48,240 nucleotides of DNA, taken from Bacillota bacterium (GTDB taxonomy: Bacteria > Bacillota > UBA4882 > UBA10575). The notes under the pieces were generated by a model. That model was not told the origin of the DNA. It made no database searches and worked only from the letters and a program-made list of their open reading frames with translations. Each line of letters starts with the position of its first letter. Within the stretch, counting starts at the first letter, position 1. Location: NCBI GenBank assembly GCA_029782135.1, contig JAKOVI010000059.1:1-48240 (forward strand), given 5' to 3'. Below are positions 39,949-43,867 of the stretch, in pieces. The translations under genes and the position numbers were made by a program.

Positions 39949-39986
39949 TAAAGAAAGCCGGTTATCCGGATTGAGTAACCGGCTTT
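39949..39986 (-). terminator. Terminator of the ABC exporter operon
   Basis: On the minus strand an eleven-pair stem, AAAGCCGGTTA/TAACCGGCTTT, is followed by CTTTATG. The stem overlaps the stop codon and the last codons of the second ABC gene. Confidence 0.75.
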
Positions 39987-41770
39987 TCTTTTGCGGCCAG
40001 AAAGCGGAACTGGGCCATAAATAACCTGTAATAGTGGCCTTTTTTCTTGATTAATTCCTGGTGAGTACCCATCTCAACGATGCGCCCCTGGTCAATCAGG
40101 ATAATCCGGTCGGCATTGACAATTGTCGATAAACGGTGGGCAATGATGAAGGAGGTCCGGCCGGCGAGTAGCCGCGTGATTCCCTGTTGTAACAGACGTT
40201 CCGTATAGGTATCAATCCCGGCGGTTGCTTCATCAAGGATCAGAATCCGGGGATCAGCCACCAGGGCGCGGGCAAAGGCGATCTGTTGCCGTTGGCCGAA
40301 GGAAAGCCGCGCCCCGCGTTCTTGCACTTCCGTGTCATACCCTCTCTCCAGTTTGGTAATGAATTCATGGGCATGCACCGCTTTCGCGGCGGCGATACAC
40401 TCCTCATCGGTGGCGGTTAACCGTCCGTACCTGATATTGTCGATAATCTTGCCGGAGAAGAGAAAAGTATCCTGCGGCACCCATCCCATTTGGCGGCGGA
40501 GGCTTTCGATGGTAACTTTCTGCAGATCAAAACCATCAATTAAGATCTGTCCGCTTTGGGGCTCAAAGAAACGGCCAATTAAATTAACAATACTGGTTTT
40601 CCCGGCGCCGGTCGGACCGACCAGGGCGACAGTCTCCCCCGGAGCCACCTTAAAACTGATCCGGTCGAGAACAATTTGCCCGTCTTGATAACCAAAGTTG
40701 ACATCTTTAAATTCAACCTCACCCCGGATTGGCGGGAGGGGTACCGCATCTTCGGCCTCCTGGATTGAGGGCTTGACGTCCATCAACTCAAAGATACGTT
40801 CCGCGCCGGAGAGATTGGCGACCAGTGTATTATAGAAATTACTTATATTCATCACCGGACGCCAGAACATCGAAACATATCCGGAGAAGGCAACGAGGAG
40901 GCCGATGGTGACCGTCCCGGTATTTAAGAGGCGGGTCCCGTACCAGAAGACAATGATCGTGCCGATTCCCCAAGAGAACTCCACCGACGGCCAGAAGAGG
41001 TCATTCAAACGGACGGCGCGGATAAAGGCATCAAAATATTCCCGGAGCAGGAGGTGAAAGTCCTTCCTGGTCTTCTCTTCAGCGGTGAAACTCTGCACCA
41101 CTCGGATGCCGGAGAAATGTTCATGGGTGAAGGCGTTCAAGTTCGAACTCTTTTGGCGGTAAATCTGCCAGCGCCGGTGGGAGATGATCTCAATCGCACC
41201 CATAAAGACGATTAGGACTGGGAGCATCAGAAAGGAGGCTAAAGCTAGACGGTAATTCATGGCCAACATAATGCTGATCACAGCGATGATCGTCGCCAGG
41301 TCCGGGATGAGATTCGTGACACTGGTATTAAAGAGATTGTTCAACGAATTGACATCACCGATCACCCGGGCCAGGATCTTACCGGCCGGACGCTGGTCAA
41401 AAAAGGAGAGGGAAAGTTTTTGCAGGTGCGCATAAAGTTCCTGCCGGATGGTCAGGTGAATCTGGTTGGTGATCGTGGCCATCAGACTGATCCGTTTTCT
41501 GGTACAAAACATCGACACCAGGATAGTGATGATCATGACCAGTCCCAAGCAGAGCAGGCCGGTCAGGTTTTTTGTCGCGATATAGCGGTCAATCGCCACT
41601 TTTAAGAGATAAGGGTTGAGCAGATCCACACCAGTGACGATCCCCATTAACAACAGCGTCAAGGCAACCTGTAACTTATATGGTTTAAGGTAGGAGAAGA
41701 GTCTGGTCAAAAGTTTAATTTTAAAAGCAGGGCGGAGGAGTTCGTCTTCCTCAATCCGGTTAATAGGCAT
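39962..41770 (-). CDS. ABC exporter half-transporter, catalytic-site subunit (BmrD-like)
   Basis: An ABC exporter of 602 aa with six membrane helices (residues about 30-320) and an ATPase domain (about 350-590). Walker A GPTGAGKTS is at 385-393 and Walker B ILILDEATAGID carries the catalytic Glu514. The signature is LSFGQ (489-493), not LSGGQ. With the partner gene upstream this is the pattern of heterodimeric exporters such as BmrCD or TM287/288, where one of the two nucleotide sites is degenerate. ATG 41770 has GGAGGTG seven bases before it, inside the end of the upstream gene; the two overlap by 11 bases and are certainly cotranscribed. The substrate is probably a drug or lipid-like compound. 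Confidence 0.9.
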   Translation of the reverse strand: MPINRIEEDELLRPAFKIKLLTRLFSYLKPYKLQVALTLLLMGIVTGVDLLNPYLLKVAIDRYIATKNLTGLLCLGLVMIITILVSMFCTRKRISLMATITNQIHLTIRQELYAHLQKLSLSFFDQRPAGKILARVIGDVNSLNNLFNTSVTNLIPDLATIIAVISIMLAMNYRLALASFLMLPVLIVFMGAIEIISHRRWQIYRQKSSNLNAFTHEHFSGIRVVQSFTAEEKTRKDFHLLLREYFDAFIRAVRLNDLFWPSVEFSWGIGTIIVFWYGTRLLNTGTVTIGLLVAFSGYVSMFWRPVMNISNFYNTLVANLSGAERIFELMDVKPSIQEAEDAVPLPPIRGEVEFKDVNFGYQDGQIVLDRISFKVAPGETVALVGPTGAGKTSIVNLIGRFFEPQSGQILIDGFDLQKVTIESLRRQMGWVPQDTFLFSGKIIDNIRYGRLTATDEECIAAAKAVHAHEFITKLERGYDTEVQERGARLSFGQRQQIAFARALVADPRILILDEATAGIDTYTERLLQQGITRLLAGRTSFIIAHRLSTIVNADRIILIDQGRIVEMGTHQELIKKKGHYYRLFMAQFRFLAAKEKPVTQSG

Positions 41771-43532
41771 AGGGCTTCACCTCCGGTGTCTTAATTCCCT
41801 GGAACTGGTCGCGGTAAATAGTAGCGTACCTTTTCCCGAAGGCTAACAACTGTTGATGGGTCCCGCGTTCCACAATTCTCCCCTGTTCCAGAATGAGAAT
41901 CTCATCGGCATTTTTCACCGCGGAGATCCGGTGCGCGATAATAATTTTGGTCCGCCCGCGTAGCATCTCCAGGGCTTGTTGGATCCGGTATTCGGTCTCC
42001 AGATCCAAATTGGAGGTCGCATCATCCAGGATCAAGATCGGGCTTTTTTTCACCAGGGCGCGGGCTAGGGCCAAGCGTTGCTTCTGCCCGCCGGAGAGGC
42101 CGATCCCCCGTTCACCGATGACGGTAGCCAATCCCTGTGGCAGTTCGGCGATAAACTCGGCCAGGGCGGCTTGTTCTAAGGCCTCTTCCAATTCTTCCCG
42201 GGTAAGGGTGTCGTCCCCGCCAAACCGGATATTCTCTTCGATCGTTGCCGAAAAAAGAAAGGTATCTTGCATCACCATGGCGACCTGCCGCCGAAGCAGT
42301 TGAAGCGGGAGTTTACGGATCTCCACCCCGTCAAGGTAGATCGCCCCGGAAGTATAATCATAATAACGGCCAATCAGATTGACTAAGGAAGTCTTCCCGG
42401 CACCGGTGACGCCCATGATCGCAATTGTTGAGCCGGGAGGAGCCTCAAAAGAAATATCCTCCAGAATCACCTGCCCATCCCGGAGATAGGAAACATGGTC
42501 AAAGACCAAATGCCCCTTAAAGTCATGAAGAATGGTTGGGACCGCCGGTTCTTGAACGGTCGGGACGGCGGCAAATAATTGGTTAATTTTTGTGACCGAC
42601 GCCAGTCCTTCGGCCAGATCATTCATCAACCAGCCGCTCATCCGCATCGGCCAGATTAGCATCGTCACATAGTTGCTGAAAGCGACCAGGGTTCCGACCG
42701 AGAGATCGTCGCCAATCACCAATGCTCCACCCACAACCGTGACGAGGATGACGGAGAGATTGGTCAGGAATTCGATTTGGGGAAAGTACCTCCCCCATAT
42801 CCGGGCACGTTTTAGTTTGTAACCGTAGTTTTCCTGGTTTTGCTGTAGAAACTTGCGGTATTCATATTGTTCGCGCCCGAAAGCCTTCACTACCCGTACG
42901 CCGGCAATATTCTCCTGCGCCGTTGTGTTAATCTTGGCGCCCTGGTCGCTGATGCGTTCACAAATCTCACCGACCTCTTTTTCCAGCCGGAGGGCAATCC
43001 GGGCGATGAACGGCATGAGCAGCAGGGCGACCAGCGACAGTTTCCAATTGAGAGCAAAGAGGATCGCGGTGGTGCTCACAAAGTAAATGACGTTTTCCAC
43101 CGAAAGCATGATTACATAGGTGAAAGCCGCTCTAATCTGGTCGACATCATCTTTCAGACGGGACATTAGTTCTCCCGTATTCGTCCGGTCAAAGAAATCA
43201 AAAGAGAGCCCCTGTAAGTGGGCGAAGAGGTCTGCTTGCAAGTGTACGGCAACTTTTTGCCCGCCATAATCAAAGCCATATTCTTTTAAATAACCGAGGA
43301 TTACCCGGCCGAAAGTAACAGCCAGAAACCCCGCGAGTGCCTTGGTTAACAAAGCGGATTCTCCCGCAATGATTACCCGGTCAATGATTAGTTTTAAAAA
43401 GTACGGATTAAACATATCCAGGAAGATTCCGAGCAACAAGGCGCCCATTGCCGGGATAAAATAGCGTTTTTCCTTGTTCACATAGGATAGGATCCGATGC
43501 ACCGTTTCACATCCTTCAGCGCTTGCCCTCAT
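41760..43532 (-). CDS. ABC exporter half-transporter, degenerate-site subunit (BmrC-like)
   Basis: The 590-residue partner of the exporter. Six membrane helices occupy about 25-310 and the ATPase about 335-580. Walker A GVTGAGKTS is at 374-382, the signature LSGGQ is canonical (479-483), but Walker B reads ILILDDATSNLD, with Asp504 where the catalytic Glu should be. This subunit thus supplies the degenerate ATP site together with the LSFGQ signature of the other. The start may be ATG 43532 (AGGT before it) or GTG 43502 (AAGGATGTG before it); the second has the better SD. A long leader with a small ORF and hairpins precedes it. Confidence 0.9.
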   Translation of the reverse strand: MRASAEGCETVHRILSYVNKEKRYFIPAMGALLLGIFLDMFNPYFLKLIIDRVIIAGESALLTKALAGFLAVTFGRVILGYLKEYGFDYGGQKVAVHLQADLFAHLQGLSFDFFDRTNTGELMSRLKDDVDQIRAAFTYVIMLSVENVIYFVSTTAILFALNWKLSLVALLLMPFIARIALRLEKEVGEICERISDQGAKINTTAQENIAGVRVVKAFGREQYEYRKFLQQNQENYGYKLKRARIWGRYFPQIEFLTNLSVILVTVVGGALVIGDDLSVGTLVAFSNYVTMLIWPMRMSGWLMNDLAEGLASVTKINQLFAAVPTVQEPAVPTILHDFKGHLVFDHVSYLRDGQVILEDISFEAPPGSTIAIMGVTGAGKTSLVNLIGRYYDYTSGAIYLDGVEIRKLPLQLLRRQVAMVMQDTFLFSATIEENIRFGGDDTLTREELEEALEQAALAEFIAELPQGLATVIGERGIGLSGGQKQRLALARALVKKSPILILDDATSNLDLETEYRIQQALEMLRGRTKIIIAHRISAVKNADEILILEQGRIVERGTHQQLLAFGKRYATIYRDQFQGIKTPEVKPYAY

Positions 43533-43603
43533 GTTTGTACCTGCCGGGCCATTTTTGATTTATCTTTGCGCAAATATTTCCGTTTATTTATTAGCTTGGA
43601 ACA

Positions 43604-43637
43604 GACAAAGGTCACGGCTTTCTCCATGACCTTTGTC
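43604..43637 (-). other. Long inverted repeat in the exporter leader
   Basis: GACAAAGGTCA and TGACCTTTGTC form a perfect eleven-pair stem around a 12-base loop. There is no T run after it on the minus strand. It lies about 70 bases before the exporter's start codon. Its loop region contains AAAGCCG, which is complementary to CGGCTTT of the terminator just upstream. Confidence 0.75.
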
Positions 43638-43643
43638 AAGATT

Positions 43644-43673
43644 AAAAAAGCCGTGGAAAAATATCTCCACGAC
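43644..43673 (-). terminator. Intrinsic terminator in the exporter leader (second)
   Basis: On the minus strand the stem GTCGTGGA/TCCACGGC (eight pairs, one G-U) is followed at once by six T residues. It is downstream of the leader ORF and upstream of the ABC genes, as expected of an attenuator. Confidence 0.75.
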
Positions 43674-43683
43674 TCAATTTAAC

Positions 43684-43735
43684 AAAAAACCGATCACAAG
43701 TAGTCAATAAATCAATTGACCTTGTTTGGAGGCGG
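43684..43735 (-). terminator. Terminator-like hairpin overlapping the leader ORF (first)
   Basis: On the minus strand ACAAG-GTCAAT pairs with ATTGAC-TA-CTTGT (eleven pairs with a two-base bulge, loop TGATTT). GATCGG and six T residues (43684-43689) follow; CGG may pair with CCG at 43733-43735. The 5' arm is made of the last codons of the leader ORF, so a ribosome there would prevent the fold. Confidence 0.55.
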
Positions 43736-43798
43736 GGAGACCATTTTCTTTCGGAGGTGATTGCTATGAAGTTTTTCCGCGAGCATCAAATGATTCAT
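43712..43798 (-). CDS. Leader peptide ORF of the ABC exporter, 28 codons
   Basis: A short frame not found by usual length cut-offs. The SD is a perfect AAAGGAGGT (43806-43814), seven bases before ATG 43798, and a consensus-like promoter lies about 25 bases further up. The peptide begins MNHLMLAEKL, has Arg-Lys-Lys at 16-18, and Ser-Pro-Pro-Pro at 21-24 before ending Asn-Lys-Val-Asn. Basic-x-basic motifs stall macrolide-bound ribosomes in other leader peptides, and polyproline stalls ribosomes in general; whether this one does is inference. Two terminator-like hairpins and a further inverted repeat separate it from the exporter. CACCTCC inside the ORF could also pair with its own SD. It parallels bmrB, the leader of bmrCD in Bacillus. 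Confidence 0.65.
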   Translation of the reverse strand: MNHLMLAEKLHSNHLRKKMVSPPPNKVN

Positions 43799-43837
43799 CT
43801 TCCCTACCTCCTTTCCTTTGGTGAAAACACTGTTAAA

Positions 43838-43867
43838 ATTATACAATCGTCCCGAAGGAACTGTCAA
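43838..43867 (-). promoter_or_regulatory. Sigma-A promoter of the exporter leader
   Basis: On the minus strand a perfect TTGACA (43862-43867) and a perfect TATAAT (43838-43843), 18 bases apart. Transcription would begin near 43831, giving a leader of about 300 bases before the first ABC gene. Confidence 0.88.

Follow-up and report, generated by a model that had tools for sequence, protein, structure and literature searches.

The DNA analysed here, called the window, is a stretch of 48,240 nucleotides that makes up one entire contig of a genome assembly from an uncultured Bacillota bacterium (2.38 Mb in 163 contigs). On its minus strand, a leader region lies 3' of an ogt-like gene (44996-44478) and a broken metallo-beta-lactamase-fold open reading frame (ORF), and 5' of a pair of ABC-exporter genes. 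A preliminary description, made from the letters alone, had reported a leader peptide and tandem hairpins at this place and had proposed ribosome-mediated attenuation of the exporter. The anatomy it gave is confirmed overall: a promoter, an ORF with its Shine-Dalgarno sequence (SD), a U-tailed terminator and an extra hairpin are followed by the overlapping exporter genes. The features, all on the minus strand, are:

43838 to 43867, minus: sigma-70-type promoter TTGACA-18-TATAAT, 12/12 consensus matches
43802 to 43813, minus: segment 1, the leader ORF's SD (AAGGAGGTAGGG), with almost no variation across 11 exporter leaders
43712 to 43798, minus: leader ORF of 28 codons, MNHLMLAEKLHSNHLRKKMVSPPPNKVN, with an ORF in the same place in 11/11 exporter leaders
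43753 to 43761, minus: second anti-SD-like stretch in the ORF, ATCACCTCC, window-specific and not kept in relatives
43728 to 43742, minus: segment 2, internal anti-SD near the ORF end (GGTCTCCCCGCCTCC), pairing with segment 1 or segment 3
43696 to 43725, minus: 'first hairpin' of the preliminary description, in the window and partly in the sister genome G001 only, not called as a terminator
43660 to 43673, minus: segment 3, 5' arm of the terminator (GTCGTGGAGATATT), alternative partner for segment 2
43644 to 43658, minus: segment 4, 3' arm of the terminator with U tract (TTCCACGGCTTTTTT), from terminator scan and folding
43604 to 43637, minus: second conserved hairpin of 14 pairs, from folding, its U tract weak in the window
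41760 to 43532, minus: ABC exporter subunit 1, degenerate Walker B (ILILDD), canonical signature (LSGGQ)
39962 to 41770, minus: ABC exporter subunit 2, canonical Walker B (ILILDE), degenerate signature (LSFGQ)

The two ABC ORFs (43532-41760 and 41770-39962) overlap by 11 nt, and the asymmetry of their catalytic sites, read from the sequence and from family and structure matches, is that of heterodimeric exporters, as had been claimed. Relatives of the two proteins with solved structures include TmrAB, TM287/288, BmrCD and Sav1866; BmrCD is not specifically the closest, since the TmrAB and TM287/288 chains score equally well or better. Orthologues of subunit 1 are 48-87% identical, with 58-87% within the class of the window and 48-51% in a second group. 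The first ATG of subunit 1 (43532) has no good SD, and an in-frame GTG at 43502 sits 9 nt past GAAGGA; this GTG is a likelier start, in agreement with where alignments to homologues begin. Upstream of the leader, between 44322 and 43874 on the minus strand, two ORF fragments match the start and the end of a metallo-beta-lactamase-fold domain (PF13483) and apparently represent a decayed gene that has lost its middle. The sister genome G001 has its exporter leader directly after the ogt-like gene.

Leader anatomy and alternative helices in the window

The promoter reported earlier, TTGACA (43867-43862) and TATAAT (43843-43838) with an 18-nt spacer, matches the consensus at 12 of 12 positions, and equivalent elements are present in the leaders of G001 and G006. 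Between the terminator and the exporter, the promoter scan called no gene-directed promoter. The 28-codon ORF (43798-43712) does follow a strong SD, AAAGGAGGT at 43814-43806, and what had been described as the second terminator is real: it consists of GTCGTGGAGATATTTTTCCACGGC plus TTTTTT, lies inside 43677-43642 and begins about 35 nt past the leader stop codon. Beyond it, the inverted repeat given as eleven pairs exists as a hairpin (43637-43604), but with 14 pairs; in relatives it is followed by a U tract and forms a tandem terminator, in leaders of both types defined below.

The hairpin formed by the last codons of the ORF, which had been put forward as the attenuator, is present in the window (43725-43696), but it is not a canonical terminator because several bases separate its stem from the six-T run (43689-43684), and it is not kept beyond the genus. 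It recurs only in G001, is absent from the other type A relatives and was not called by the scan. For want of conservation and of an adjoining U tract, it was rejected as a regulatory element. The nearby ATCACCTCC stretch (43761-43753) resembles the 3' end of 16S rRNA.

As a whole, the 300-nt leader folds much better than its shuffled versions (z -4.5, 0/200). Pairing of segment 1 with segment 2 in the window has a predicted energy of -19.3 kcal/mol (shuffle p 0.004) and pairing of segment 2 with segment 3 one of -14.7 kcal/mol. The two helices, 1:2 and 2:3, overlap, that is, bases of segment 2 belong to both.

Conservation of the pairing and divergence of the peptide

Six genomes of the window's class and five of another family have the three-segment layout upstream of orthologous exporters. 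We refer to the former as type A (n=6: the window, G001, G006 (UBA5388), G005 (UBA5486), G025 (Reactor_metabat.58) and G010) and to the latter as type B (n=5, one family with orthologues 48-51% identical: G255, G154, G278, G121 and G083). When five type A leaders are aligned (the window, G001, G006, G005 and G025), the conserved blocks are the SD AAGGAGGTnGGG, the ORF end TCCCCrCCTC and the terminator CGyGGnGATAT...CCrCGGCTTTT; the consensus of segment 1 in relatives is GGAGGTnGGG.

Two covariance models link the types. R1, built from five type A leaders with only the SD/ORF-end and terminator helices included, recovered G010, where the element precedes a different exporter gene of the group, found G083 in the phylum and recovers all five type B leaders. 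R2, built from the five type B leaders only, has the window element as its sole match on the window's genome (E 6e-4) and recovers 6/6 type A leaders, five at E<=0.11 and one at 0.22, with no other match at E<=1 in 49 sources, of which 36 are paralogous exporter loci. Searches of Rfam yielded no match at the gathering score. The plasmids searched contained no match.

Several candidates were set aside. Weak class and phylum matches (L037, L039, L041 and L043-L046) were inspected and treated as chance terminators, and L007/L008 and L055/L056, which carry tandem terminators without a clear fit to the model, were not counted. Likewise not counted were L057-L060, exporter orthologues from one genus with an unrelated long and highly structured leader; it carries a seven-codon mini-ORF, MIKGVLK, whose codons GTGTTCTTAAA can pair with the downstream TTTAAGAACAC.

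The 2:3 helix provides a separate line of evidence, as R1 and R2, through which the sequences were gathered, do not contain it. Its type A consensus form joins GAUAUCCCCAC to GUGGAGAUAUC with a single fixed mismatch; the type B form is AUAGCCC with GGGCUAU, and that of G010 is UAUCUCCAC with GUGGGGAUA. Over nine leaders, 92.6% of the cells of this helix are paired, against 20-58% when the segments are slid, and two pairs have changed on both sides (U-A/G-C and A-U/G-C). The 1:2 and 3:4 helices are jointly 96.3% paired over nine leaders and the 3:4 helix by itself 98.6%, with two compensatory pairs; all these compensatory counts rest on few independent changes because the segments vary little among related leaders. 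In a set of 18 leaders (11 exporter, three GNAT, G374, two CD3324 and one MutS2 paralogue), both helices occur at overlapping positions in every one; when the ORF region is dinucleotide-shuffled, the combination appears in no more than 1.1% of cases and mostly in 0-0.1%. The C-run and G-run flanks match their own partner better than any of 2000 between-subtype permutations, which is supporting rather than decisive because the flanks were anchored by hand; the comparison of own with foreign segment 1 is uninformative because the SDs are alike.

The leader peptide behaves differently from the RNA. An ORF of 26-42 codons stands at the same place in 11/11 exporter leaders, and the peptides share almost nothing. 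The C-run of segment 2 occupies all three reading frames over the whole set and two within the exporter leaders: it is read as TCC-CCG-CCT (S-P-P) in the window, ATC-CCC-GCC-TCC (I-P-A-S) in G025 and ATC-TCC-ACC (I-S-T) in G010, and as CCC-TGC (P-C) in the GNAT leader of G121. S-P-(P/A) recurs in exporter leaders, G010 being without it, and comparison of the exporter leaders revealed no conserved arrest motif of the kind found in ermC and tlrB. The earlier impression that nothing similar was known thus applies to the peptide but not to the RNA, which has relatives in ten other exporter leaders. Alignment, which had been suggested as a check, finds the ORF, the terminator and the 14-pair hairpin kept and compensatory changes present, with the peptide codons not conserved; judged from these comparisons, species have the RNA pairing in common and not the leader peptide.

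Ribosome position and the predicted switch

We folded the leaders at equilibrium with an assumed ribosome footprint of -14/+15. In the nascent RNA up to the terminator loop, 1:2 mostly dominates without a ribosome (0.92 in the window), the exceptions being G083, G128 and G017, which fold 2:3 over 1:2 even then. A ribosome at the start codon raises 2:3 to 0.34 in the window, which is among the weaker cases, and to 0.47-0.96 in most others; in G001 the value is 0.06 under the helix scored there. With the ribosome at the stop codon, 2:3 is mostly low, and a ribosome over segment 2 abolishes it. The permissive positions are codons 1-4, fading by codons 5-7, in the window and eight relatives (9/9 exporter leaders); beyond the early codons, 2:3 is mostly lost unless a second ribosome occupies the start. 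In the full-length RNA at equilibrium the terminator is favoured nearly always, so that the switch needs co-transcriptional timing.

Comparative evidence strongly supports the general proposal that the exporter is under ribosome-mediated transcription attenuation. A short, translated-looking ORF with an SD lies upstream of an intrinsic terminator in 11/11 exporter leaders, and by computation the antiterminator and the terminator are mutually exclusive and tied to the position of the ribosome. The segments, their conservation, the compensatory changes and the permissive codon window emerge directly from the alignments and folding models; transcription itself, a response to drugs and co-transcriptional timing are inferred. 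The leader is probably an attenuator with 1:2 as anti-antiterminator, 2:3 as antiterminator and 3:4 as terminator, in which a ribosome held at the start would turn the exporter on. With no ribosome, segment 2 would hold the SD and the terminator would form; with a ribosome translating freely to the ORF end, segment 2 would be covered while the terminator is made, and transcription would stop. A ribosome held at the start or the first few codons (about 1-5) would instead cover segment 1 and leave segment 2 free as segment 3 emerges; segment 2 would then trap segment 3, forming the antiterminator, and the exporter would be transcribed. The likely inducers would be drugs or conditions preventing an initiated ribosome from moving into elongation.

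This differs from the mechanism first suggested, in which ribosomes stalled by antibiotics near Arg-Lys-Lys or Pro-Pro-Pro would block the first hairpin and cause read-through; we considered it as a nascent-peptide arrest of the kind seen in tlrB and ermC leaders. Such codons do exist in the window, R/K-X-R/K is a known macrolide arrest motif (PMC6851288), and S-P-P or P-A is recurrent in exporter leaders. Peptide-specific arrest is nonetheless improbable because the peptides diverge and the reading frame of segment 2 varies, G025 and G010 using another than the window; Arg-Lys-Lys is not found outside the genus, nor is the first hairpin conserved. Folding points the same way: a ribosome stalled at Arg-Lys-Lys (codons 16-18) or Pro-Pro-Pro (codons 22-24) would sit on or beside segment 2 and cover or crowd it, with little or no antiterminator formed, and codons over segment 2, Pro-Pro-Pro included, never permit 2:3.

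The same anatomy might respond to initiation capacity instead of a drug: the helix of the SD with segment 2 and slow exit from the start would tie the exporter to the condition of the translation machinery (nutrients, (p)ppGpp, free ribosomes). We regard this as rather unlikely, although the sensing segment is the SD itself, the layout is also found before non-exporter genes, and translation defects other than drugs induce vmlR as well (PMC9226507); against it, a multidrug-type exporter is the commonest downstream gene found, and induction of BmrD in B. subtilis is independent of (p)ppGpp (PMC9226507). A ligand-binding riboswitch or protein-controlled attenuator overlapping a chance ORF would account for the tandem terminators kept in orthologue leaders that have no clear ORF (L055, L056), but is very hard to reconcile with a conserved SD, ORFs of 26-42 codons with variable sequence and variable spacers, and with the lack of an Rfam family or of any conserved domain beyond the three segments. 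Ordinary strong terminators that end the upstream gene, without regulation, could by themselves insulate the exporter; this is the least credible reading, given a consensus promoter and an SD-ORF between the upstream gene and the terminator, and a terminator arm that is conserved and covaries with the ORF end.

The proposed start-stall attenuator has several partial counterparts. In the leader of vmlR, which encodes an ABCF resistance factor of B. subtilis, drugs that stall initiation prevent the anti-antiterminator and the peptide matters little, as shown experimentally (PMC9226507). There, as in our folding predictions, a ribosome halted as it begins a short upstream ORF decides between anti-antiterminator, antiterminator and terminator, and the peptide is not critical: natural variants work in vmlR (PMC9226507), while here the comparative evidence consists of divergent peptides and frames. 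The vmlR ORF, however, comprises three codons inside stem-loop 1 and its SD is single-stranded (PMC9226507), whereas here the SD is a strand of the anti-antiterminator and pairs with the last part of an ORF that has 26-42 codons, and the downstream gene is an exporter instead of an ABCF gene. The bmrB leader of bmrCD in B. subtilis likewise has a leader ORF and predicted terminator, antiterminator and anti-antiterminator upstream of a heterodimeric multidrug-type ABC exporter (PMC4191407), but its terminator lies within the ORF, while here it lies past the stop codon, and the SD serves as segment 1. The macrolide-arrest leaders of the tlrB (yxjB)/ermC type share a short leader ORF and attenuation (PMC6851288) and differ in needing a conserved arrest peptide. 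Before patAB of Streptococcus pneumoniae, also a heterodimeric ABC exporter, the same three structures are predicted; in the parts of that report available to us no leader ORF is described, and the inducers differ (PMC4319486). The closest in logic are vmlR, with its initiation stall, and bmrBCD; what sets the leader apart is that the SD itself would be the sensing segment, an arrangement of which we found no description in the literature searched, most subscription papers being outside its scope.

The same layout before other genes

Model matches upstream of genes other than exporters show the same pairing relation with different bases, which suggests that the element is one of a whole class of attenuators. 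We put forward, with the prospects evenly balanced, a class in Bacillota that is diverse in sequence and conserved in architecture, in which the terminator 5' arm and the leader SD compete for an anti-SD at the ORF end and which controls a hidden translation-stress regulon. By this competition the RNA would read whether the ribosome has left the start codon, a peptide-independent sensing of ribosomes stuck at translation start. If so, the regulon would include exporters, a GNAT-domain protein, CD3324-family proteins and a MutS2 paralogue. The corresponding sequence rule is simple, namely that the end of the ORF can pair with the SD as well as with the terminator arm. Any genome can be searched with it, and the genes it flags would probably be ones that translation inhibitors induce, among them the uncharacterised MutS2 paralogue and the CD3324-family proteins.

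The layout lies upstream of a large protein with a GNAT-like N-terminal domain in L082 (G121), L083 (G083) and L084 (G255), at about 1501-1672, and in the G255 case the SD GGTAAGG and segment 2 CCTTGCC have changed together. It is also present upstream of CD3324-family genes in L040 (G017) and L047 (G128), at about 1501-1681, the family being assigned through a match to NF040785 for the G017 protein and by reading for that of G128; in G128, segment 2 GATCTACCCAC pairs perfectly with the terminator arm GTGGGTAGATC.

In three genera, the layout occurs in the 420 nt upstream of a short MutS2 paralogue that covers positions 1-518 of the 790-position mutS2 model (L113 in G021, L114 in G020 and L115 in G017, with a model match in G020 and matching layouts in G021 and G017). 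Full-length mutS2 has no such leader within 200 nt upstream in G001, G005, G006, G022 and G025. MutS2 is a ribosome-rescue factor in B. subtilis, so that a drug-inducible role of the paralogue is conceivable. In the G021 leader of this paralogue, CAGCTCTGCC stands against GGGCAGAGCTG.
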